A stretch of 32,954 bases of DNA, from contig CALMVN010000119.1 in the NCBI GenBank assembly GCA_937873225.1, positions 1 through 32,954 of the forward strand. Reading direction: 5' to 3'. Each line of letters starts with the position of its first letter. The stretch's first letter is position 1. Below the pieces are notes generated by a model. The model was not told the origin of the DNA, ran no database searches, and saw nothing but the letters and a program-made list of their open reading frames with translations. Shown here one piece after another: positions 5,876-32,954 of the stretch. Position numbers and translations under genes: made by a program. The stretch comes from an uncultured Acetobacteraceae bacterium. Its GTDB lineage: Bacteria > Pseudomonadota > Alphaproteobacteria > Acetobacterales > Acetobacteraceae.

Positions 5876-7092
<1,217 letters not shown>

Positions 7093-14881: not shown

Positions 14882-15355
14882 TCAAGTCGAGTCGTTCTCG
14901 ACCGCCACCCGCGCTGCCGTCGCCAGCCGGTCCACCCGCTCGTTGTCCACGTTCCCGGCATGGCCGCGGACCCAGCGCCACTCCACCTGGTGCCGCTTCG
15001 CCGCCTCCAGCACACGGCGCCACAGGTCCATGTTGGCGACCGGGTCGCCGCCGGCGGTGCGCCAGTTGCGCCGAACCCAGCCGGTGGACCAGCGGGTGAC
15101 GCCGTTGCGCACGTACTCGCTGTCGGTGTGCAGCGCGATCCGGCACGGCCGGGTCAGCGCTTCCAGCGCTTCTGCCGCCGCGGTCAACTCCATGCGGTTG
15201 TTGGTGGTGGCCGGCTCGCCGCCGCTCAGCTCGCGCTCGTGGCTGCCGAACCGGAGCAGCGCCGCCCAGCCGCCCGGTCCCGGGTTCGGCTTGCAGCCGC
15301 CGTCGGTCCAGACCTCGACCACTGCCGGTCCGGCACCCGCCGCCTCGCCGCTCAC
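14882..15355 (-). CDS. rnhA: Ribonuclease HI
   Basis: Encodes 157 aa and cuts RNA in RNA-DNA hybrids using two metal ions. The four acidic residues are Asp18 ([17 protein letters not shown]), Glu56 (NNRMELTAA), Asp78 (LHTDSEYV) and Asp142 (NERVDRLA), with His132 in the flexible loop (GHAGN). The GTG start overlaps the stop of thrB (GTGA, 15352-15355), indicating coupled translation. Length is usual for the family. The order ispH-thrB-rnhA is common in alphaproteobacteria. Confidence 0.95.
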
Positions 15356-16362
15356 AGGCCGAGCGCCCCGGGTGTTGCGGCAAGGAGGTGGCGCAGGCGG
15401 TGGAGGTAGTCGAGCGGGTCCTTGCGTGTCACCAGCGCGCCGTCCGGGGTGTTCACCCAGTCGAACAGCCGGGTCAGCAGGAAGCGGATCGCCGCCCCCT
15501 GCGCCAGCACCGGCAGCGCCTGCCGCTCGGCCGGTTCCAGCCGGCGCACGCTCTGGTAGCCGTCGAGGATCAGGCGGGCCTTGGTCACGTTGAAGTCCAG
15601 GTTGGGGCACTCCAGGTCGGGACGCCTGGGGCCGGGCTCGAAGCACCAGGCGTTCAGGCAGACCCCCAGGTCGTAGGCCAGCAGGTCGGTGCAGGCGAAG
15701 TAGAAGTCGATCAGACCGGACAGCGCCCGGCTGCCGGGGCCGCCCGAGCCGCCTTGCAGGAAGAACACGTTGTCCGGGAACAGGTCGGCGTGGATCTGCC
15801 CACGCGGCAGCCCTCCCGGCCAGGCCGGCAGGATGTGCGCCAGCGCCCGGTCGAGCTCGGCCACCAGCCCCGGCTGCACCCGGTCACCGGACGAGCGGCA
15901 GCTGTCCAGCAGCGGCATCCAGGCGTCCGGACCGAGCCGGTTCGGACGCACCGGCGCGTAGTCGGAACCCGCCCCATGCAGACGCGCCAGCGCCTCGCCC
16001 AGCGGACGGCAATGCTCCGGCCGCACCCGGCGCGGCCAGACCCCCGGCAGGAACGAGGTGATCGCCGCCGGCCGGCCGGCCAGCGCGCGCAGCGCCTCGC
16101 CGTCGCGGCCGGGAACCGGCTGCGGGCAGGTCACGCCGCGGGTGGCCAGGTGGCGCATCAGGCCGAGGAACCAGGGCAGTTCGGCGGCGTCGACCCGCTT
16201 CTCGTAGAGGGTCAGGATGTAGTCGCCGGTGCCGGTGCGCAGCGAGAAGTTGCTGTTCTCGACCCCCTCGGCGATGCCGCGGAACGCCACCAGCGGGCCC
16301 AGCTCGTACTCGCCGAGAAACGTCGACAGCGCCTCGTCGGAAACGTCGGTATAGACCGCCAC
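15352..16362 (-). CDS. thrB: Homoserine kinase (APH-like ThrB)
   Basis: Encodes 336 aa and phosphorylates L-homoserine in threonine synthesis. It belongs to the aminoglycoside-phosphotransferase-fold ThrB used by alphaproteobacteria, not the GHMP kinase type. Visible marks are the N-terminus [33 protein letters not shown], a YILTLYEKR nucleotide-binding strand, the Brenner-type catalytic loop [11 protein letters not shown], and GLIDFYFAC in place of the metal-binding DFG. It lies 39 bp after ispH, and its stop overlaps rnhA. Confidence 0.95.
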
Positions 16363-16401
16363 GCGCGGGGCGCCGTACGGGCCGGGGAAACCGGGCCGGG
16401 A

Positions 16402-17403
16402 TCAGCCGAGCGGGGCGGGCAGCTTGAAGATCACGTCCTCGAGCTTCACCGTGCGCTCCTCGATCTCCAGCCGGTAGCGGTGTCCGAGCGCCGTCACCAT
16501 CTCCTGCACCAGCGCTTCCGGCGCCGACGCGCCGGCGGTGATGCCGAGCGTGTGCACGTTCTCCAGCACCGACCAGTCGAGGTCGCGCAGGCGCGGCACC
16601 AGCAGCGCGCGCGGCGCCCCCGAGCGTTCCGCTACCTCGCGCAGGCGCTGCGAGTTGGACGAGTTCGGGCTGCCGATCACGATCACCAGATCGCAGCCGG
16701 GCGCGATCGCCTTGACGGCCTCCTGGCGGTTGGTGGTGGCGTAGCAGATGTCCTCGCGCTTCGGACCCTCGATCAGCGGGAAGCGGGAGCGCAGGATCTC
16801 GACGATCTCGGCGGTGTCGTCCACCGACAGCGTGGTCTGGGTGATGAAGGCGAGCCGTGTCGGGTCGGCCGGATGCACCCGGCGCGCTTCCTCGGCGTCG
16901 TTGACCAGGGTGACCGCGCCCGGCGGCAGCTGGCCCATGGTGCCGACCACCTCCGGATGCCCGGCATGGCCGATCATCAGGATGTGCCGGCTGTCGGCTC
17001 CCCCCTCGGCGAAGTGGCGCTCGGCCTCGCGGTGCACCTTGCTGACCAGCGGGCAGGTGGCGTCGAGGTAGAGCAGGTTGCGCCGCTCTGCCTCGGCCGG
17101 CACCGTCTTCGGCACGCCGTGGGCGGAGAACACCACGTGGCCGTCGGCCGGCACCTCGTCCAGCTCCTCGACGAAGATGGCGCCCTTGGCCTCCAGCTCC
17201 TCGACCACCGTGCGGTTGTGCACGATCTCGTGGCGCACGTACACCGGCGCGCCGTAGCGTCGCAGCGCCTCCTCGACCACCCGGATCGCCCGGTCCACCC
17301 CGGCGCAGAACCCGCGCGGCCCGGCCAGCAGCAGCTTGAGCTGCGGCAGCGTTCCTTGCGTCGGCAGGGCGACGGTCGGCTGGTCAAGCATCTGGTCCGG
17401 CAT
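16402..17403 (-). CDS. ispH: 4-hydroxy-3-methylbut-2-enyl diphosphate reductase
   Basis: Encodes 333 aa and performs the last step of the MEP isoprenoid pathway, reducing HMBPP to IPP and DMAPP with a [4Fe-4S] cluster. The three cluster cysteines are Cys33 ([11 protein letters not shown]), Cys117 ([12 protein letters not shown]) and Cys220 ([12 protein letters not shown]). The substrate-binding SPNSSNS motif and SAHGVP are intact. ATG 17403 is chosen because GGGGAACAGG precedes it; ATG 17391 is an alternative. It is the first gene of the ispH-thrB-rnhA operon and divergent from the lipoprotein gene. Confidence 0.97.
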
Positions 17404-17523
17404 CCTGTTCCCCAAACCCGCGTCGGGCCCTATATGGCGTCCCGTCGCCGCGGACGCAAAGCCCCGGGCGACGCCCGCAACGCCGCGTCCTGCCTTACAG
17501 GGCCGGCCGGTCGAAAGTCGAGA

Positions 17524-18108
17524 ATGAACGTGTCGAAGCCGATCCGTGCGTCCCGGCCGATGCTGCTGCCGGCCCTGTCTGCCTGCGCCGCGCCCGTGCT
17601 GGCGACGGCGCTGCTGTCCGGATGCGGGCCGCAGAACCCGGACGCGTTCGCGCCGGCCTGCGCGTCGGTGGGGCTGCTGGCCGAGGCCGCGGACTACACC
17701 GACTACGGCCCGGACCGGGTCTCGCGTCCCGACCTGAGCCGCCTCCTCAGCCACGGCAGCATCATCGGCGTGTCCGGGCATTGCAGCAACGCCGCCGGCG
17801 GCACCGCGCTGCACACGGTGGTGCAGGTGCAGATGGCGATCGACCGCGGTCCGGCCGCCACGGGCAGCAGCCTGGACATCCCGTACTTCCTCGCCGTGAC
17901 GCTGGACGGCACGGTGGTCAGCAAGCTCGGTCTCGCGGCCCACGCGCAGTTCCCGGACAACGGCGACAAGGTGCTGGTCAAGACCGACCCGGTGGCGCTG
18001 GACCTGCCCGTCACGCGGCACCGGCCCGGTTCGGCGTACCGGATCGAGGTGGGCTTCCAGCTTTCGCCGCAGCAGCTCGACTACAACCGCGCCCATCCCG
18101 GACGCTGA
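17524..18108 (+). CDS. Predicted lipoprotein of unknown function
   Basis: Encodes 194 aa. The N-terminus has a basic start ([12 protein letters not shown]), a hydrophobic stretch and a lipobox LLSGC with Cys34 as the lipidation site. The mature part starts [20 protein letters not shown] and contains ADYTDYG, a [13 protein letters not shown] strand and [16 protein letters not shown]. It looks like a beta-rich periplasmic or outer-membrane-anchored domain. I cannot name the family. It is divergent from ispH (120 bp) and 88 bp before gcvH on the same strand. Confidence 0.85.
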
Positions 18109-18196
18109 CGCGAACGCGCGCACGCGCACCGGGGAACGCGAACCAAAACCGGACACGGCGTTGGATGCGTCACGACCGCAGGAGGAGTTCGAAGCG

Positions 18197-18574
18197 ATGG
18201 CCGACATCCGCTACACCAAGGACCACGAGTGGGTCCGCCTCGAGGCCGACGGCACCGCCACGGTCGGCATCACCGACCACGCCCAGGAGGCGCTGGGCGA
18301 CGTCGTGTTCGTGGAGCTGCCGATCGCCGACCGCGTGCTGGCGGAAGGCGAAAGCTGCGCCGTGGTGGAAAGCGTGAAGGCGGCCTCCGACGTGTACGCG
18401 CCGCTGTCCGGCACGGTGCTGGAAGCCAACGAGCTGCTGGCCGACGACCCCTCCCTGGTCAACCGCGACCCGGAGGACGAGGCCTGGTTCTTCCGGATGG
18501 AGCCGTCCGATCCGGAGGCCTTCAAGGCGCTGATGGACGAGGACGCCTACCAGAGCTTCGTCGAGTCGCTGTGA
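18197..18574 (+). CDS. gcvH: Glycine cleavage system H protein
   Basis: Encodes 125 aa. It carries the lipoyl arm that shuttles the aminomethyl group between the P, T and L proteins. Lipoylation is expected at Lys61 in [17 protein letters not shown]. The start [20 protein letters not shown] at 18197 has AGGAGG about 12 bases upstream. Length is typical. The genes for GcvT and GcvP are not in the window: the preceding gene is a lipoprotein and the next is on the other strand. Confidence 0.97.
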
Positions 18575-18607
18575 CCGGCGCGCGCGGACGGGCCGAGGCC
18601 CGCTGCC

Positions 18608-19072
18608 TCACTGCGCGCCGCCCACGTACGCCTTGAGGCTCTCGACCTCGGTCGCCTGCTGCACCATGCGCGCCTTCACCACGTCGCCGATGCTCACCAT
18701 GCCCACCAGCACCTCGTGCTCCAGCACCGGCAGGTGCCGCACCCGGCGCTCGGTCATCATCGCGGCCGCGTCGGCCAGGTCCGCGGACAGGCCGATCGTG
18801 CTCCGCACCTCGCTCATGACCTGCGACGCCGCCATGTCAAGCACGTCGCCGGCGCTGTGGGCTTCCGCCAGGGCGCGGATGACGTCGCGCTCGCTGACGA
18901 TGCCCAGGATGTGCCGGTCCCGTATGTCGAACCGGTTGGCGGCGGGATCGAGCACCAGCACGGCGCCGATCCCGTGCTGTCGCAGGGTGCTCACCACCGC
19001 GCTCACGCTGGCGTTCGGCGGGACGCTCACGACGGTGCGGCCCTTGCTGTTCAGGATAGCCTCGATCGTCAT
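18608..19072 (-). CDS. Tandem CBS-domain protein
   Basis: Encodes 154 aa, with two CBS domains (about 10-70 and 80-140) and nothing else. Characteristic pieces are the first-domain ending HILGIVSERDVIRALAE and the second-domain ending RRVRHLPVLEHEVLVGMVSI. Stand-alone CBS pairs sense adenine nucleotides and modulate partner proteins; the partner is unknown. AGGGAG precedes ATG 19072 (MTIEAILNSKG). It is convergent with gcvH and divergent from the MFS gene. Confidence 0.93.
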   Translation of the reverse strand: MTIEAILNSKGRTVVSVPPNASVSAVVSTLRQHGIGAVLVLDPAANRFDIRDRHILGIVSERDVIRALAEAHSAGDVLDMAASQVMSEVRSTIGLSADLADAAAMMTERRVRHLPVLEHEVLVGMVSIGDVVKARMVQQATEVESLKAYVGGAQ

Positions 19073-19193
19073 GATGCCCGCTCCCTTCGTCGTTCGACGC
19101 TTCGGGTCCTGCGCCCCGTGCCGCAGGAGGATGATCCCACCGGGGCGGACACGTCCAGGCGCAGTCTCGTGATGGGAAACCAGCGTTCCTTCG

Positions 19194-20408
19194 GTGGATA
19201 GCGTGCCGCCGCATGAGGCGTCGCTTGAGCAGGCCTGGCGACGCAACCTGTTCGTGTGCACGTTCGGCGCCTTCACCACCGTGCTGGCGATGACCCTGCT
19301 GCTGCCGTTCCTGCCGCTCTACGTCGCGGCACTCGGGGTGCGGAACCCGGGCGCGGTCGCGCAATGGTCGGGCATCACCTTCGGCGCGACCTTTCTCGCC
19401 TCCGGTGCTGCAGCGCCGTTCTGGGGCCGGGTCGCGGACCGCTGGGGGCGCAAGCCGATCCTGGTGCGGGCCAGCCTCGGCATGGCGGCGTGCATGGCGC
19501 TGACCGGCACCGTGCAGACCATCTGGCAGCTTCTGGCGCTCCGGCTGCTGACCGGGCTGCTCGGCGGCTACGCGTCCGGCTCGACGCTGCTGGTGGCGAC
19601 GCAGACCCCGAAGGCGCGCTCGGCCTGGGCGCTTGGGGTGCTGTCCTCCGGGATCATGGCAGGCGGCGTGGCGGGGCCGCTGCTGGGCGGGGCGCTGCCG
19701 CCGCTGATCGGGGTACGCCGGACCTTCCTGCTCGCGGGCGGGGTGATCTTCGTGGCGTTCCTGGCCACGGTGCTGCTGATCCGGGAAGCGAGGCCCGAGC
19801 GCGTCGTCGGACCGCGCCCGGGCGCCTGGTCGGAGGTTCCGGACCGGCGCGCGGTGCTGGCGATGCTGCTGACCGGCACCCTGCTCACGCTCGCCAACAT
19901 GTCGATCGAGCCGATCGTCACCCTCTACGTGGCGCAGTTGATGCCCCGCGGCGGCCCGGTCACGGTGATGTCCGGCCTGATCATGGCCGCGGCGGCGCTC
20001 GGCAGCGTCCTCGCCGCCCCGCCAGTGGGCCGGATCGCGGACCGGATCGGGCCCCGGCGTGTGGTGGTCGCCGGCCTGCTGGCCTGCGCGCTGCTGCTCC
20101 TGCCGCAGGCGCTGGTGACGCGGACGTGGCAGCTGCTGGTTCTGCGCTTCCTGATGGGCGCGGCCCTGGCCGGGCTGTCTCCCGCGATCACCAGCATGAT
20201 CCGCCATGCGGTGCCCCTGACGGTCGCCGGACGCATCCTGTCCCTGAACACCTCCGCCCAGTACGTCGGCTTCGTCGCCGGCCCGCTCCTGGGCGGGATC
20301 GTCGCGGCCCATCTCGGCATGCGCCCGGTGTTCCTCGTCACCAGCCTGCTGATGCTGGCCGGCGCCGTCCTCGCCTCGAGGCTGCGGGACTTGCCACCCG
20401 GCCGATAA
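19194..20408 (+). CDS. mdtG: MdtG-like MFS efflux transporter
   Basis: Encodes about 404 aa and 12 predicted membrane helices, an inner-membrane proton-driven exporter. The loop 2-3 signature is RVADRWGRKPIL. WRRNLFVCTFGAF, the LPFLPLYVAALGV segment, QWSGITFGATFLASG and TQTPKARSAWALGVLS closely resemble E. coli MdtG as I remember it, which is linked to drug and deoxycholate tolerance. The start is taken as GTG 19194; GTG 19203 is equally possible and neither has a strong ribosome-binding site. It is divergent from the CBS gene by 121 bp. Substrates are not predictable. Confidence 0.88.
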   Translation: MDSVPPHEASLEQAWRRNLFVCTFGAFTTVLAMTLLLPFLPLYVAALGVRNPGAVAQWSGITFGATFLASGAAAPFWGRVADRWGRKPILVRASLGMAACMALTGTVQTIWQLLALRLLTGLLGGYASGSTLLVATQTPKARSAWALGVLSSGIMAGGVAGPLLGGALPPLIGVRRTFLLAGGVIFVAFLATVLLIREARPERVVGPRPGAWSEVPDRRAVLAMLLTGTLLTLANMSIEPIVTLYVAQLMPRGGPVTVMSGLIMAAAALGSVLAAPPVGRIADRIGPRRVVVAGLLACALLLLPQALVTRTWQLLVLRFLMGAALAGLSPAITSMIRHAVPLTVAGRILSLNTSAQYVGFVAGPLLGGIVAAHLGMRPVFLVTSLLMLAGAVLASRLRDLPPGR

Positions 20409-20456
20409 TGCAACACTCGGGTTGCCGGAGGGATCGAGCCGCAAGGCAGATCGATG

Positions 20457-20497
20457 CCCTTTGGCGGGCCCCCGGGGGCAGCGCCCCTTGCCTCGGC
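20457..20497. repeat. GC-rich palindromic element, REP-like
   Basis: It contains a 12-bp perfect palindrome GCCCCCGGGGGC (20468-20479) and an overlapping hairpin GGGGC-AGC-GCCCC (20475-20487), preceded by CTTTGGCGG. The form resembles short intergenic palindromes that are abundant in some Acetobacteraceae genomes. It lies between the MFS stop and the OPT start and could end transcription or mark a dispersed repeat. No second copy is seen in this window. Confidence 0.35.
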
Positions 20498-20517
20498 CTT
20501 TTCCTGGGAGCCGCCCG

Positions 20518-22542
20518 ATGCCGCCTCGTGAACTCACCGTGCGCGGCCTGCTGCTCGGCGCCCTGCTCACGATCGTCTTCACCGCCTCCAACATCTATCT
20601 CGGCCTCAGGATCGGCCTGACCTTCGCCTCCTCCATCCCGGCCGCGGTGATCTCCATGGCGGCGCTTCGCGCCTTCGGCGGCGGCATCCTGGAGAACAAC
20701 ATGGTGCAGACGCAGGCCTCGGCCGCCGGCACCCTGTCCTCCATCATCTTCGTGCTGCCCGGCCTGGTGATGATCGGCTACTGGCAGGGCTTCCCGTTCT
20801 GGCCGGTGGCGGCGATCTGCGGCGCAGGCGGCATGCTGGGGGTGCTGTTCACCATCCCGCTGCGACGCGCGCTGGTGACCGGCAGCACCCTGCCCTATCC
20901 GGAAGGCACCGCGGCGGCCGAGGTGCTGCGTGCCGGGTCGGGCGAGGCCGGCCACGGCGCCGGCGCCGAAAGCGGGCTGCGGGCGCTGGTCACCGGCAGC
21001 GCGGTGTCGGCCGGGTTCAGCCTGCTGAGCGGGGGCCTGCGCGTGCTGGGCGACAGCGCCAGCCTCACCTTCAGCGCCGGCAGCGCGGTGTTCCGCCTGT
21101 CCACCGGCTTCTCGCTGGCGCTGGTCGGTGCCGGCTACCTGGTGGGCATCGTCGGCGGCCTGGCGATGCTGCTGGGTGCGGCGCTCAGCTGGCTGGTGGC
21201 GGTGCCGGTGCTGACCGCGCTCACGCCGCGCCCGGCGGGGGTCGACATCGTGACCTTCGCCACCGGCCTCTGGTCGCACAAGGTGCGGCTGATCGGCGCC
21301 GGCACTATCGCCATCGCCGCGGTGTGGACGCTGCTGAACCTCCTCGGGCCGGTCGCGGCCGGGCTGCGCGTCGCCCTTCGCGCCGGCAGGCAGCAGCACG
21401 GCGCCGGCGCCGGCGACACCCAGACCGACCGCGACCTGTCGCCGCGCGTCATCGGCGTGCTGGGTGCCGCCCTGCTCGCCTGCCTGCTGGCGGCGTTCGG
21501 CGCCTTCCTGTGGCAGGACGCGGCCGCCGCCGGCAGCCCGGCCGCCGCCCTGCTCGGCGTCGCGGTCGTCTGCGTCGTGTTCTGCGCCCTGTTCGGGTTC
21601 CTGGTGGCGGCGGCCTGCGGCTACATGGCCGGGATCGTCGGCTCCTCGGCCAGCCCGATCTCCGGCATCGCCATCGTCGCGGTGCTTCTGGTGTCTCTGC
21701 TGCTGCTGACGCTGGACGCCCTCGGGCTGCTGCCCGGCGCCTTCGACGCCAACGGGCGTCGCCTGGCGATCGGCAGCGTGCTGTTCGTGACCTCCGCCGT
21801 GCTGGCGTCGGCGACCATCTCCAACGACAACCTCCAGGACCTCAAGACCGGGCAGCTGGTCGGCGCCACCCCGTGGCGGCAGCAGGTGGCGCTGCTGGCC
21901 GGCTGCGTGGTGGGGGCCGCGGTGATCGCGCCGGTGCTGAACCTGCTCTACGGCGCCTACGGCTTCGCCGGCGCCCTGCCGCGCCCGGGCATGGACCCGA
22001 CCCGGGCGCTGGCGGCGCCGCAGGCGCTGCTGCTGTCGACGCTGGCGCGCGGCATCTTCCTGCACCAGCTCGACTGGACCATGGTGCTGATCGGCGTGGC
22101 GCTGGGCGCGCTCCTGGTCGGCGCCGACGGGTGGCTGCGGCGCGGCGGCCGCTCGCTGCCGGTGCTGGCGGTCGGCATCGGGCTCTACCTGCCGCCCACG
22201 GTGTCGGTCACCCTGGTGGTCGGCGCGGTACTGTCCTGGGCGATCAACCGGGCGCTGTCGCGCCGCGAGACGACGGGCCGCGCCTTGGCGCCGATGCCGG
22301 CCGATCCCATGTTGGACACGACCCGGCGTCGCGGGGTGATGCTGGCCTCCGGCTTCATCGTCGGCGAAAGCCTGATGGGGGTGGCGATCGCCGCCGTGAT
22401 CGGCGGGACCGGCAGCGAGAACGCCCTCGCGGTGGTCGGTCCCGGCTTCGCGGGCACGGCCACGTGGCTCGGCGCCGGCGCGTTCGTCCTGGTCTGCGCC
22501 GGGTTCGCCTGGACGATCCTGCGTCGGCGCGTGCCGGCCTGA
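20518..22542 (+). CDS. OPT-family oligopeptide transporter
   Basis: Encodes 674 aa with about 14-16 hydrophobic segments. The start MPPRELTVRGLLLGALLTIV has GGGAG 7 bases upstream. Family marks are the opening GLLLGALLTIVFTASNIYLG, NNMVQTQASAAGTLSS, TGSTLPYPEGTAAAEVL, and the later ISNDNLQDLKTGQLVGATPW. Bacterial members of this branch (TIGR00733) are thought to import peptides or metal chelates with protons. No ligand is suggested by neighbours except the monooxygenase 30 bp downstream, which may be co-transcribed. Confidence 0.95.
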   Translation: MPPRELTVRGLLLGALLTIVFTASNIYLGLRIGLTFASSIPAAVISMAALRAFGGGILENNMVQTQASAAGTLSSIIFVLPGLVMIGYWQGFPFWPVAAICGAGGMLGVLFTIPLRRALVTGSTLPYPEGTAAAEVLRAGSGEAGHGAGAESGLRALVTGSAVSAGFSLLSGGLRVLGDSASLTFSAGSAVFRLSTGFSLALVGAGYLVGIVGGLAMLLGAALSWLVAVPVLTALTPRPAGVDIVTFATGLWSHKVRLIGAGTIAIAAVWTLLNLLGPVAAGLRVALRAGRQQHGAGAGDTQTDRDLSPRVIGVLGAALLACLLAAFGAFLWQDAAAAGSPAAALLGVAVVCVVFCALFGFLVAAACGYMAGIVGSSASPISGIAIVAVLLVSLLLLTLDALGLLPGAFDANGRRLAIGSVLFVTSAVLASATISNDNLQDLKTGQLVGATPWRQQVALLAGCVVGAAVIAPVLNLLYGAYGFAGALPRPGMDPTRALAAPQALLLSTLARGIFLHQLDWTMVLIGVALGALLVGADGWLRRGGRSLPVLAVGIGLYLPPTVSVTLVVGAVLSWAINRALSRRETTGRALAPMPADPMLDTTRRRGVMLASGFIVGESLMGVAIAAVIGGTGSENALAVVGPGFAGTATWLGAGAFVLVCAGFAWTILRRRVPA

Positions 22543-22572
22543 GGGCCCAGGCAGGAAGAAAGGTTTCGATCC

Positions 22573-23592
22573 ATGATCCCGTTCTCGGTTCTCGACCTGT
22601 CGCCGATCATCGAGGGCGGCGACGCGGCGCTCGCCTTCCGCAACACGCTCGACCTGGCGCGCCATGCGGAAGGGTGGGGGTTCCACCGCTACTGGCTGGC
22701 CGAGCACCACAACATGCCGGGCATCGCGTCGGCGGCGACGGCGGTGGTGATCGGGCACGTGGCGGCCGGCACGCGCACGATCCGGGTGGGTGCGGGCGGC
22801 ATCATGCTGCCGAACCACGCGCCGCTGGCGATCGCCGAGCAGTTCGGCACCCTGGCCTCGCTGCATCCGGGCCGGATCGACCTCGGGCTTGGCCGCGCGC
22901 CGGGCTCGGACCAGCGCACCATGCTGGCGCTGCGGCGCGACCCGGCGAGCGGCGACACCTTTCCGCGCGACGTGCTGGAGCTGCAGGGCTATTTCCGCCC
23001 GGCGGAGCCGGGGCAGGCGATCCAGGCGGTGCCCGGCGCGGGGCTCGACGTGCCGATCTGGCTGCTGGGATCGAGCCTGTTCAGCGCCCAGCTCGCCGCC
23101 ATGCTGGGGCTGCCGTTCGCGTTCGCCTCGCACTTCGCGCCGGACGCGATGGGGGCGGCGATCGACATCTATCGCAGCCGGTTCGAGCCCTCCGCCGCGC
23201 TGAGCAGGCCCTACGTGATGCTGGGCGTGAACGTGTTCGCGGCCGACACCGACGCGGAGGCGAGGTTCATCGCCACCTCGGCGCAGCAGCAGTTCATCTC
23301 GCTGCGTCGGGGCACGCCGGGCAAGCTGAAGCCGCCGGTGCGCTCCATGGACGGGCTGTGGAGCCCGGCGGAGGAGGCACAGGTGCGGCATACGTTGTCG
23401 GCTGCGATCGTCGGCAGCCCGGACACGGTGCGTCGCGGGCTCGACGGCTTCATCCGGCGCACCGGCGCCGACGAGCTGCTGGTGGCGGGACAGATCTTTG
23501 ACCACCAGGCCCGGCTGCGCTCGTACGGCATCGTGGCGGACGCGCATGCGGCGCTGTCGCGGGATGGAGCGGGGGCTGCTGCGGCGGCGTGA
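22573..23592 (+). CDS. Luciferase-like (LLM class) flavin-dependent monooxygenase
   Basis: Encodes 339 aa and a (beta/alpha)8 bacterial-luciferase fold. It starts [40 protein letters not shown] and [20 protein letters not shown], then [10 protein letters not shown], are typical of the MsnO8/TIGR03558 branch, which uses FMNH2. The real substrate of these proteins is generally unknown. AGGAAGAAAGG precedes ATG 22573. The protein ends in a low-complexity GAGAAAAA tail. It follows the OPT gene by 30 bp. Confidence 0.93.
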
Positions 23593-28817: not shown

Positions 28818-29612
28818 TCAGTCCGGTCCGGGCAGCAGCCGGTCGGTGCGGTCGAGCAGGCGGTAGACCAGGAGGCCGATCCACTCGTGCGCGGCCGTGT
28901 CGATCCGGTCGAGGCGCTGCGGCAGGGTCGGCGCCAGCTCCACCACCAGGCTGTGCGCGGTCTTGTAGCCGACCGGGTCGGCCAGCACCGGCCAGCCGGC
29001 GGCGCGGAAGGCGCCCATCGCCCGCGGCATGTGGTCGGCGGAGGTGACCAGGATCCAGGTCTCGTCCGGACGGGGATGCAGCAGGGCGGCGAGGTCGAGG
29101 GCGTTCTCAGAGGTGGTCTGGCTGCGGTTCTCGTAGGTGACGGGACGTGCGGCCAGGCCGAGGCCGTCGAACAGCCGCCGGGCGACGTCGGCCTCGGACA
29201 GCCGGCCGCGGAACACCCGGCCGGAGCCGCCGGTAAAGGCGAGCCGTGCCTCGGGATGCGCCAGCGCCAGCGTCACGAAGGCGGTCATGCGCTCGGCGGC
29301 GTCGTTGAGCGAGGGCAGCCCGCGCGCCTCGGTCAGCTCGGGGTCGACCGCGCCGCCGAGGCAGATGATGCCGGTGACGTGCGGCGGCAGGACGCGGAGC
29401 GGCGGGAAGCGGTCCTCCAGGGGGACGAGCAGCCAGCTGTCCAGCGGCAGCAGGACGAGCAGCAGCTCGAAGGCGATCGGGACCGCGAGCAGCGCGAGGG
29501 CGAGGCGGCGCGCCCGCCCGGACAGCAGCAGCAGGAGCCCGAGAGCCGAGGACAGCAGCAGCAGCACGCTCGGGCGCGTGACCGCTTCGGCGAGCTTGGC
29601 GAGGACGAACAT
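28818..29612 (-). CDS. YdcF/ElyC/SanA-like (DUF218) membrane protein
   Basis: Encodes 264 aa. Two N-terminal membrane segments (about 10-30 and 36-58) precede a DUF218 domain. The domain opens with GIICLGGAVDPELTEARGLP and contains RLAFTGGSGRV, ENRSQTTSENALDLAALL and WILVTSADHMPRAMGAFRAA. Family members act at the cell envelope (ElyC in undecaprenyl-phosphate use, SanA in vancomycin tolerance), but no enzymatic reaction is settled. It begins 32 bp after the binding-protein gene on the same strand, so it may be read through from the TPP riboswitch message. Confidence 0.88.
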   Translation of the reverse strand: MFVLAKLAEAVTRPSVLLLLSSALGLLLLLSGRARRLALALLAVPIAFELLLVLLPLDSWLLVPLEDRFPPLRVLPPHVTGIICLGGAVDPELTEARGLPSLNDAAERMTAFVTLALAHPEARLAFTGGSGRVFRGRLSEADVARRLFDGLGLAARPVTYENRSQTTSENALDLAALLHPRPDETWILVTSADHMPRAMGAFRAAGWPVLADPVGYKTAHSLVVELAPTLPQRLDRIDTAAHEWIGLLVYRLLDRTDRLLPGPD

Positions 29613-29644: not shown

Positions 29645-30577
29645 TCAAGGCTGCACCGCGATCTGGTCCACCGGCAGCGCCGTCTTCAGCGTGCCCTCCC
29701 GCACCATGAAGTCCTGGAAGGCGGCGTAGCGCTGCGCGTCCAGCCGCGCCGGGTCCCTGGCCAGATGCGGCAGGGTGGCGAACCAGGCGGCGTGGTTGAG
29801 CGGCGTGTTCTCGTCGGGATGGTCCTTGACGAAGGCGTCCCACATCCGGTCGGGATGGACCAGCAGCGTGGCGGTGCCCTCGCGGAGTGCGGCGAGGAAG
29901 CGCACGACGCGGGGGTCGTGCGCGTCGTCGCGCCGGGCGAGCAGGATCAGCTCGTCGTAGGGTGGAACGCCGTGATCCTCGGGGTTGAAGGCGGTCGCCT
30001 TGAACCCGCGCTGCCGGAGGTCGATCTGCTCGTAGTTGCGCATGCCGCCGATCACCGCGTCCACGCTGTGCGACATTAGCGCCTGCTCGATCTGGAAGTT
30101 GACCTCGGTCAGGGTGACGTCGGTGGTCCTGAGCCCGACCGTGCCGAGCATGGCGCGGAGCAGCGCCTCGTCGGTGGCGCCGATCGACGCGCCGACCCGG
30201 CGGCCCTTGAGGTCGGCGAGGCTCCTGATCGGGCCGCTGGCTGCGACCAGCAGCGTGGTCAGCGGGGTGTCCTCCAGCGTGCCGACGCGCACGAGGCCGA
30301 GGCCCGCCGCGTCCAGCAGGGCGAGCTCGGGCTGGTAGCTGACGCAGAGGTCGGCCTGGTGGGCGGCCAGCAGGCGCGGCGGCGAGCCGGGATCGGCCGG
30401 CACGACGAAGCGCACGTCGAGGCCGGCGCGGGCGTAGGCGCCGTCGTACTGCGCCGACAGCAGCGCCTCATGGTTGGCGTTGACGAACCAGTCCAGGATG
30501 ACCGTGAGCCGGTCGGCGGCGCGGGCGGGCGACGCGGACAGGCCGGCGAGCAGCGCCAGGAGCAGCAGGGCGCGCAT
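29645..30577 (-). CDS. thiY: ThiY/NMT1-family periplasmic binding protein (thiamine pyrimidine precursor)
   Basis: Encodes 310 aa. The signal peptide MRALLLLALLAGLSASPARA is likely cut after residue 20. The mature protein starts ADRLTVILDWFVNANHEALL, the NMT1/THI5-like opening with the DW..N..H motif that contacts the pyrimidine in ThiY. LKGRRVGASIGATDEALLRA and VDAVIGGMRNYEQIDLRQRG are typical of the fold. ThiY delivers formylaminopyrimidine or HMP-type precursors to the ThiXZ ABC transporter; ThiX and ThiZ are not in the window. Its ATG overlaps the receptor stop (TGATG, 30575-30579), so it shares the riboswitch-led message. An alternative is another NMT1-like ligand, but the riboswitch favours thiamine metabolism. 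Confidence 0.9.
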   Translation of the reverse strand: MRALLLLALLAGLSASPARAADRLTVILDWFVNANHEALLSAQYDGAYARAGLDVRFVVPADPGSPPRLLAAHQADLCVSYQPELALLDAAGLGLVRVGTLEDTPLTTLLVAASGPIRSLADLKGRRVGASIGATDEALLRAMLGTVGLRTTDVTLTEVNFQIEQALMSHSVDAVIGGMRNYEQIDLRQRGFKATAFNPEDHGVPPYDELILLARRDDAHDPRVVRFLAALREGTATLLVHPDRMWDAFVKDHPDENTPLNHAAWFATLPHLARDPARLDAQRYAAFQDFMVREGTLKTALPVDQIAVQP

Positions 30578-32895
30578 CAGAAGGCCGAGGCGACGGTGAC
30601 CAGGGCGGCGAACCCGCCCTGGATGTAGTAGGTCGCGGGAGATCCGGGGATCAGCGTGCCGTAGCGGCCGATCGTGCTCCGGGCGTTGGTGGTCGGGCTG
30701 GCGATGCCGGACAGGGCGTCGCTGTCGGTCACGTTGAGGAGGTTGAGCCGGAACTCCGGATGCTTGGCAGGCCCGAGGTTCGGCAGCCGCACGCCCAGGG
30801 TGACGTCGCCCTGGCTGTGGTCGGCGATCTTCTCGTCGTCGGTGAAGCTCGCGTATTGCGGGCCCACGTACTTGACCGCGACGGTGCCGAACCAGGTGCC
30901 GTCGTCGTAGGAAAGGCCGACCGCGCCCTGCCAGGCCGGGCTGCGCACGGCGATGTGGCCGGCGGTGGGCAGCAGGTCGCCGTCGACGAGCAGGTCGTTG
31001 TCGATGGTGGCGTGGAGGTACTCGCCCGACAGGTACGGGCTCAGGTGGTGCCACGGGCGCAGGCCGAGCTCGGCGTCGATCCCGCGGCTGGTCTGGCCGC
31101 CGGCGTTGATGGTGGAGCCGGTCAGCACGCCGTTCAGGTCGATCACGGTGGCGATCTGCCGGTTGGTGAAGTCGTAGTTGAAGGCGGTGACGCTGCCGAG
31201 CAGCCAGTCGCCCTGCCGGCGGTAGCCGATCTCCTCGGAGATCGAGTACTCGTCGCGCAGGTTGGTGGCCGCCTTGTTGAGCAGCGTGCCGGAGCCGGGG
31301 TCGAAGCTGTCGAACAGCACGGTCGCGGAGGGCGTGCGGAAGTTGGTGGAGACGCTGGCGAACACCTGGTTCCTCCTGTCCACCTGCCAGCGCAGGCCGA
31401 CCCGGGGCAGCGGCTCGGCGCTGTCGGCGCCGGTGCGGTAGGTCGCACCCGGGATCCCGTTCCAGCCCTGCCTGGTCACCATCACCTCCTTGAAGCCGAG
31501 CTCGAGCGACAGCGTACGGTGCAGCAGCGAGATCGTGTCGCCGACGAACAGGGCGTTCACCTGCTCGATGCTGTGCTCGTCCTGCGACAGCAACGGGCGG
31601 CCGTTCGCCAGCGTGATCGTGTCGCGCCCGGAATCGACCCAGATGCTGGCCGACGAGCCGTCCGGGCTCAGCGGGCTGAAGGTGCCGGGCTCGCGGTCGT
31701 CGGCGTAGTCGTACCAGGCGCCGGCGACGAAGCTGTTGTTGCGCCACGCCCAGCTCAGCTTGGGCACCAGCCCGGCGCGGTAGCTGGCCTGCTGGTAGTT
31801 GCTCTGTACCGTCGCCTGGCCGTCCTGCGCGGGCAGGCTCAGCGTCTGCGAGAGCGCCTCGGTGCCTTCGAACAGGCCGCTGGTCGGCAGGGTCGTGCCG
31901 CCGGGCGTGTTGCCATAGCCGTACTGCGCGTACGGCGTCACGTCGAAGGATAGCGTGGACGACAGGTGAAGATGCGTCGGCGCCAGCGCGTAGAACAGCC
32001 GGTAGGGCTGCTGGTACAGGCGCCAGTAGTTGGTGTCGCCGGGGGTGTAGGTGCCGTCGTAGTTGTCGGGGCCCGATCGCCCGTACTGCTTCCAGTCAGC
32101 CTGCGTGACTTCCGGGTAGGCGCTGGTGACGGCGTCGTTCCAGGTGCCGATCAGCGACACGTGGTCGCCGTCGGCCCAGTCCCGCACGAGCTTGACGTCG
32201 ACGTGCTGGCGGTTGTCATGGCCGGAGCCGCGCCAGTTGTCGGCGGTCTCCTGCGAGTACGACACGAAGCCGCGTATCCCGCTGCCACCCAGCGCGCCGG
32301 TGTCGAGCCGGATGAAGTCCTTGTTGGTGTGATAGGAGCCGTAGGCGACATCGGCAAACACGCCTTCATGCGCAGCCGGATCGCGCAGCGTGAGCGACAG
32401 CAGGCCGCCGGCCGCGTTGATCACCGGGGTGTCGAGGTCGTCGGTGCCCTGGGACAGGCTGATCCGCTCGATGTTCTCGGTGTCGGCGAACTGGCCGGGA
32501 TAGCCGGTGTAGTAGGCGATGTCGTTCAGCGGCATGCCTTCCAGCACGTAGCCGATCTCGTCCGAGCCGAGCCCGCGCAGGGACAGGTCGCTTTCCGCGG
32601 ACAGGCCGAGCGGGTCGGCCTGGGCGACGGTGGCGCCGGGCAGCAGCGACACGAGCTGGTAGGCGTTCTCGGTCGGCGCCGCCCGGCGCAGGAAGTCCGA
32701 CGACACGGTGCTGAGCGACTTCGTGGCGGTCTCGTCGCGGATCAGCCCGCCGCCCGGCTGGCCGCCGACCGGGCCGTTGGCGGTGTCGGCGCCGGGCCGG
32801 CCGAGGACGGTGACGTTCTCCTGCGCTCGCGCCGTTATCGTGCCAGCGAGCAGGACGCCGCCCATGAATAGGGCGCGCGCGCGGAACTGGCGCAT
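30577..32895 (-). CDS. TonB-dependent receptor under a TPP riboswitch, probable thiamine or precursor receptor
   Basis: Encodes 772 aa. The signal peptide is MRQFRARALFMGGVLLAGTI...ARA, cut before QENV. A plug domain (about 55-165) has NAYQLVSLLPGATVAQADPL, SDLSLRGLGSDEIGYVLEGM and NAAGGLLSLTLRDPA. A beta barrel follows and ends in VASAF, an aromatic C-terminus. ATG 32895 has AGGGAGG 8 bases upstream. Riboswitch control and coupling to the thiY-like gene point to thiamine, its phosphates or its pyrimidine part as ligand. From memory, TonB receptors in TPP-riboswitch regulons are known in other phyla (the omr1 class). It is not close in sequence to the receptor at 839-3190. Confidence 0.93.
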   Translation of the reverse strand: MRQFRARALFMGGVLLAGTITARAQENVTVLGRPGADTANGPVGGQPGGGLIRDETATKSLSTVSSDFLRRAAPTENAYQLVSLLPGATVAQADPLGLSAESDLSLRGLGSDEIGYVLEGMPLNDIAYYTGYPGQFADTENIERISLSQGTDDLDTPVINAAGGLLSLTLRDPAAHEGVFADVAYGSYHTNKDFIRLDTGALGGSGIRGFVSYSQETADNWRGSGHDNRQHVDVKLVRDWADGDHVSLIGTWNDAVTSAYPEVTQADWKQYGRSGPDNYDGTYTPGDTNYWRLYQQPYRLFYALAPTHLHLSSTLSFDVTPYAQYGYGNTPGGTTLPTSGLFEGTEALSQTLSLPAQDGQATVQSNYQQASYRAGLVPKLSWAWRNNSFVAGAWYDYADDREPGTFSPLSPDGSSASIWVDSGRDTITLANGRPLLSQDEHSIEQVNALFVGDTISLLHRTLSLELGFKEVMVTRQGWNGIPGATYRTGADSAEPLPRVGLRWQVDRRNQVFASVSTNFRTPSATVLFDSFDPGSGTLLNKAATNLRDEYSISEEIGYRRQGDWLLGSVTAFNYDFTNRQIATVIDLNGVLTGSTINAGGQTSRGIDAELGLRPWHHLSPYLSGEYLHATIDNDLLVDGDLLPTAGHIAVRSPAWQGAVGLSYDDGTWFGTVAVKYVGPQYASFTDDEKIADHSQGDVTLGVRLPNLGPAKHPEFRLNLLNVTDSDALSGIASPTTNARSTIGRYGTLIPGSPATYYIQGGFAALVTVASAF

Positions 32896-32903
32896 CGGAC
32901 ATG

Positions 32904-32954
32904 CCTCCCTTCGCTGGAATGACCCAGATCAGGTTCGACGGGTTTGATCTCAGC
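32904..32954 (-). promoter_or_regulatory. TPP (THI-box) riboswitch, 5' part beyond the window
   Basis: Read on the minus strand from the window edge, the sequence has the THI-box landmarks in order: CTGAGA, ACCC, GAACCTGATCTGG, a short loop, then CCAGCGAAGGGA. The first stem half (P1/P2 5' side) lies outside. The closing segment AGGGA runs directly into the Shine-Dalgarno AGGGAGG (32904-32910), 8 bases before the receptor ATG. Binding of TPP should therefore hide the ribosome-binding site; no terminator stem is seen between aptamer and gene. Confidence 0.93.

Follow-up and report, generated by a model that had tools for sequence, protein, structure and literature searches.

In Escherichia coli, fecA-fecB and fhuACDB both place a receptor gene ahead of the gene for a periplasmic acceptor; the ligands are iron ligands, control is by Fur, and the ABC transporter genes are part of the operon. 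Outer-membrane receptors have also been linked to thiamine. Genetics in Bacteroides thetaiotaomicron has described OMthi (BT2390) as a TPP-regulated TonB receptor for thiamine, together with PnuT-Tnr3 (BT2396-2397) (PMC5613172); omr1 of SAR86 and Flavobacteriales has TPP riboswitches nearby (PMC10881298), and TonB receptors co-localised with PnuT have been predicted to serve thiamin (PMC2771747). In the literature that we searched, the coverage of which is incomplete, we found no description of a TonB receptor joined to ThiY, and none of an active outer-membrane route for the thiamine pyrimidine precursor. Here we describe a locus of the Acetobacteraceae in which a TPP riboswitch is followed by a TonB receptor gene and a ThiY-like gene, and we compare its organization across the family.

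A TPP riboswitch, a TonB receptor and a ThiY-like protein

The window, which is the whole stretch of DNA analysed (32,954 nucleotides), is the entire contig C119 of an Acetobacteraceae draft genome (G000; 4.06 Mb in 348 contigs, 99.55% complete), and position 32954, the contig end, falls inside a minus-strand TPP riboswitch (Table 1). A default Rfam search of the window gives no match, the aptamer being incomplete; with truncation allowed, cmscan finds it at 45.8 bits (E 3.6e-8), the loss of the 5′ end accounting for a score below the RF00059 gathering score of 54.3. The THI-box landmarks that the first-pass annotation had seen at the window end are confirmed by this RF00059 match. The covariance model is the evidence here; minimum-energy folding did not recover the aptamer fold and performed no better than on shuffles. 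A match to the M23 sRNA at 32755-32810 (28.9 bits, cut-off 41.2) was rejected as being below threshold and in GC-rich coding DNA.

The receptor has both a barrel domain (PF00593: 95.9 bits, E 6.6e-27, Pfam cut-off 27) and a plug domain (PF07715: 40.1 bits, E 5.7e-10, cut-off 23.9), in agreement with its earlier description as TonB-dependent. The sequence ENVTVLG that follows its signal peptide is TonB-box-like and is similar in relatives, as judged by eye from the alignment. Searches of the PDB by single sequence and by profile gave no match to the receptor and no hint of a substrate, and in NCBIfam it matches only haem/haemoglobin-type receptors, weakly and with scores far under the cut-off.

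The second gene was likewise correctly recognized as ThiY/NMT1-like, with a match to PF09084 of 171.8 bits (E 2.5e-50, cut-off 20.5). Its best PDB match is 3ix1, the FAMP-binding ThiY of Bacillus halodurans (E 9.6e-33), and 4nmy, which shares the fold, is a binding protein solved with thiamin. A fold search with the predicted model also ranks 3ix1 first (TM ~0.48), which is supportive only, the model being weak (mean pLDDT 62). The closest named relatives of this ThiY are in Acetobacteraceae genomes, the isolates KSS8 and KSS12 among them, both of which carry the receptor-ThiY pair. As previously noted, the ThiY start codon overlaps the receptor stop codon as TGATG. The next gene after ThiY in the window, at 28818-29612, is DUF218/ElyC-like; no such gene was seen next to the pair in the congeners.

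Table 1. Positions of the riboswitch, the receptor-ThiY pair and the transporter and tenA genes of the same genome
Feature	Location	Strand	Basis or source
ThiY/NMT1-like periplasmic binding protein, 310 aa	29645..30577	-	PF09084
TGATG, receptor stop overlapping ThiY start	30575..30579	-	sequence
TonB-dependent outer-membrane receptor, 772 aa	30577..32895	-	PF00593, PF07715
TPP riboswitch aptamer, 3′ two thirds (RF00059 model positions 30-105)	32889..32954	-	cmscan; 5′ part lost at contig end
GGGAGG, Shine-Dalgarno-like, within aptamer 3′ side, 8 nt before receptor ATG	32904..32909	-	sequence
thiX	C344 6447-7238	-	G000
thiZ	C344 7235-7996	-	G000
tenA, divergent from thiZX	C344 8023-8805	+	G000

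The missing 5′ part of the riboswitch

A second contig of the same genome, C134, ends with a complete TPP riboswitch followed by 91 receptor codons (G000:C134:1-362, L003). This riboswitch scores 66.7 bits and those of the four congeners (G001-G004) 66-71 bits, all over the gathering cut-off, so that the covariance model does match once the 5′ part is present, as the first-pass annotation had proposed should be checked. Upstream of the riboswitch C134 carries an S9 prolyl oligopeptidase gene, and all four congeners have an S9 peptidase homologue upstream of the riboswitch, receptor and ThiY, at distances from almost adjacent to ~3.4 kb; by this comparison C134 is suitably placed to be the upstream neighbour of the window. 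The 55 nt of riboswitch that the two contigs share are identical, and sequence common to two alleles or copies explains the contig break.

The 91 receptor codons of C134 are 84-85% identical to those of the window rather than identical, as would be expected if there were two loci in this genome, with the C134 riboswitch and receptor start belonging to a second, paralogous receptor and the window riboswitch continuing into other sequence. We regard this as unlikely, because the riboswitch with a close receptor occurs just once in each of the four congeners, with the homologue of the C134 peptidase gene upstream, and the assembly, 99.55% complete, yielded nothing more of a second receptor or ThiY; it is simpler to explain the divergence by an allele from a different strain at the C134 end. 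With one locus or with two, the function would be the same.

Conservation of the receptor-ThiY pair

Comparison of gene order shows the riboswitch, receptor and ThiY intact in four of four congeners, and receptor followed by ThiY in seven other genera too, a conservation which argues that the pairing is more than chance. In total the pair is present in 19 genomes of eight genera, which include 16 of a first form (G000, G001-G005, G044, G122, G137, G173, G174, G223, G263, G294, G323 and G346) and three of a second (G053, G131 and G179). In all 16 first-form genomes the receptor is preceded by a TPP riboswitch that exceeds the gathering score, counting the C134 copy for the window. The riboswitch before the G053 receptor falls just under that score at 51.1 bits, and in G131 and G179 no TPP riboswitch reaches it in the stretches scanned. 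In G053 and G131 the gene order is thiZ-thiX-kinase-receptor-thiY.

The TGATG overlap recurs in G002, G003 and G053; the genes overlap by 4 nt in G173 and G223, abut in G005, and are separated by no more than ~25 nt in most other genomes that have the pair. Within one genus (G044, G346, G323, G294) the gap extends to 0.4-3 kb, and tight coupling of the two genes, as judged from their spacing, is thus common and not universal. The conserved order, the overlapping genes and the single riboswitch ahead of both support the proposal that receptor and ThiY are expressed from one message. In the ThiY tree the linked proteins form one main clade, which takes in the ThiY of G046 and G063, no longer linked to a receptor, and a separate clade of G053, G131 and G179; the pairing has therefore been gained or lost more than once.

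Mode of regulation

In 12 loci the GGGAG of the aptamer lies 4-9 nt ahead of the receptor start codon, and the space between aptamer and start is too small for a terminator. With a Shine-Dalgarno-like sequence on the 3′ side of the aptamer so close to the start, and with no room for termination, control is probably translational, and we infer that TPP binding should hide this sequence and so repress the receptor. No Shine-Dalgarno sequence can be seen ahead of ThiY in the window, G002, G003 or G053. Since the ThiY of the window lacks one, it is expected to rely on receptor translation for its own. The outcome would be joint control of receptor and acceptor by TPP. In Gluconobacter oxydans, the TPP riboswitch of thiC seems from coverage data to act by transcription termination (PMC5756330), and the mode therefore appears to differ between genes.

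There is also an out-of-frame ATG at 32902, directly after GGGAGG and 7 nt before the receptor start, which opens a frame of 178 aa (32366-32902). It recurs in several congeners and may be part of the closing helix of the aptamer.

Thiamine genes in this genome and its relatives

The transporter genes thiX and thiZ are not next to the ThiY of the window; they are on contig C344, with tenA divergent from them (Table 1). This block is also present in G001-G003, its TenA exceeds the NCBIfam thiaminase II cut-off (135 versus 130), and no TPP riboswitch was found near it. The first-pass annotation envisaged that one message builds a thiamine or precursor uptake route: its outer-membrane and periplasmic genes are indeed together, and the route is nonetheless incomplete at the locus, with thiZX beside tenA on another contig. 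In other genera, orthologues of this ThiY adjoin thiXZ (G057, in the order thiY-tenA-thiZ-thiX, and G071, G099, G015 and G086), indicating that thiY here has left the transporter genes for a place beside the receptor. An APH-family kinase gene lies alongside thiZX in G053, G131 and G005.

Several further arrangements were seen in this comparison. In G001 (L034:12-8638) ThiY is immediately followed by the gene block found at 15352-23592 of the window; in G004 this block is close to ThiY, and parts of it flank thiZX in G063 (L081) and G046 (L082). Judging from this shared block, thiY and thiZX may have been adjacent in the past. On contig C53 of G004, which has a full ThiY elsewhere, two partial ThiY-like frames of ~50% identity (L077:1776-2276 and 6021-6506) flank thiZX and are possible remnants of an older thiY.

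Searches for ThiC (PF01964) gave no match in G000-G005, G044 and G053, with controls positive in 13 of 14. The genome of the window keeps ThiG (336.6 bits), ThiD (310.2 bits) and ThiE (150.7 bits), and so has the gene pattern of a pyrimidine-branch thiamine auxotroph: among the genes tested the sole missing step is the pyrimidine-making one, which ThiY/TenA salvage can replace. G053 has the pair and lacks ThiC, ThiG, ThiD and TenA.

Loss of ThiC and alternative receptor partners

Across the family ThiC is present in 208 of 299 genomes. It is missing from 18 of the 19 genomes with the receptor-ThiY pair, G174 having both, versus 73 of the 280 others. A simple test of this association gives p 2e-9, yet it is a single unreplicated contrast on the receptor tree, and we therefore report it as a pattern that is by itself no proof of a causal link. 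That the pair goes with the loss of a biosynthetic enzyme ties the choice of outer-membrane receptor to vitamin auxotrophy.

The receptor tree splits with full support into a side with all of the ThiY-linked receptors and a side with kinase/permease-linked receptors, whose genes are followed by those for an APH-family kinase and a PnuC/PnuT-type permease. Of 16 kinase/PnuT-type receptors checked, one of which has the kinase alone, 13 come from genomes with ThiC; these counts leave out G041, which has neither gene beside the receptor, and include G069, which has both, the tree labels being opposite for these two. The existence of two alternative partner sets in one receptor family leaves specificity open to comparative testing.

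Examples of TPP riboswitch, receptor, APH-family kinase and PnuC/PnuT-type permease in this order were seen at L129:9259-10929, L130:4900-6580, L131:482-2190 and L132:8860-10532; this arrangement, which recurs in many genomes of the family, is likely to be an operon for thiamine uptake and phosphorylation. In G033 (L128:9108-10589) a TPP riboswitch lies ahead of a receptor that is more divergent, and two TenA-family genes come after this receptor. Their products apparently have signal peptides; these are possibly periplasmic thiaminase II enzymes, and a third type of partner for the receptor family.

What the operon may take up

On balance we favour the interpretation that this is a TPP-repressed operon which scavenges a thiamine vitamer, most probably the pyrimidine half (HMP, aminopyrimidine or formyl-aminopyrimidine). 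At low TPP the Shine-Dalgarno-like sequence would be exposed and the receptor translated, followed by ThiY through coupling at TGATG. The receptor would then carry the compound across the outer membrane, where periplasmic ThiY would capture it and, as we infer, pass it to the ThiX/ThiZ transporter encoded elsewhere. TenA would convert aminopyrimidines to HMP, and ThiD and ThiE would join this to the thiazole made with ThiG, salvage thereby replacing the missing ThiC step. A pyrimidine ligand is suggested by the FAMP-binding 3ix1 as best PDB match, by the location of tenA beside thiZX, and by the absence of ThiC from a genome that retains ThiG, ThiE and ThiD.

The same operon under the same regulation could instead serve intact thiamine or a phosphate ester, with a general thiamine receptor, a thiamine site in ThiY and TenA on a side route; we hold this to be a substantial if lesser prospect. 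The kinase and PnuT-like permease that take the place of ThiY in the sister group are what would be expected for whole thiamine, and suggest it as the alternative ligand here, as do the kinase with thiZX in G053, G131 and G005 and the thiamin-bound 4nmy. G053 in particular, lacking every pyrimidine and thiazole gene tested, would be helped only by whole thiamine, which counts against the pyrimidine, as does the coexistence of the pair with ThiC in G174. It is nevertheless FAMP that the closest solved ThiY relative binds, thiZX is accompanied in G000 to G003 by tenA and not by a kinase, and keeping ThiG, ThiE and ThiD pays only if pyrimidine is imported or released. That the receptor is for an unrelated compound such as an iron chelate, and beside thiY by chance, seems very improbable: the haem/haemoglobin-type NCBIfam matches and the want of a solved relative would allow it, whereas in many genomes of the family the receptor comes immediately after a TPP riboswitch, with downstream partners that are solely of thiamine type (ThiY, kinase and PnuT, or TenA). 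Returning to a pyrimidine ligand, we raise a further idea tentatively, and think it less likely than not: that this receptor is the first example of a TonB-dependent transporter devoted to a pyrimidine precursor of thiamine and not to thiamine itself, having co-diversified with ThiY as its acceptor, and that its sisters with kinase and PnuT-like permease act on whole thiamine. If this were true, one receptor family would have switched its ligand and its inner-membrane route together.

Comparison with known systems

The order of receptor gene and then periplasmic acceptor gene in the window is that of fecA-fecB and fhuACDB, and the earlier view that a receptor translationally coupled to its acceptor is uncommon needs the qualification that this gene order as such is no rarity; the pairing with ThiY is what is unusual. 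In contrast to those systems, the pair is under a TPP riboswitch, the ABC genes are elsewhere, and no iron ligand is proposed. As in the aminopyrimidine salvage system ThiY-ThiX-ThiZ-TenA, to which 3ix1 belongs, a ThiY family member, thiXZ and tenA are all present in the genome; here, however, thiY is away from thiXZ and accompanies the gene for an outer-membrane receptor, with a riboswitch of its own. By their descriptions OMthi and omr1 resemble the receptor of the window in being TonB receptors linked to TPP riboswitches, and differ in having the permease PnuT as inner partner where this locus has ThiY, and in belonging to a different phylum. The PnuT-linked receptors predicted earlier (PMC2771747) are matched by the kinase/PnuT sister receptors, the group of the window having ThiY instead. 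TonB receptors for thiamine were thus already known, and what appears new here is the joining of a TonB receptor to ThiY.
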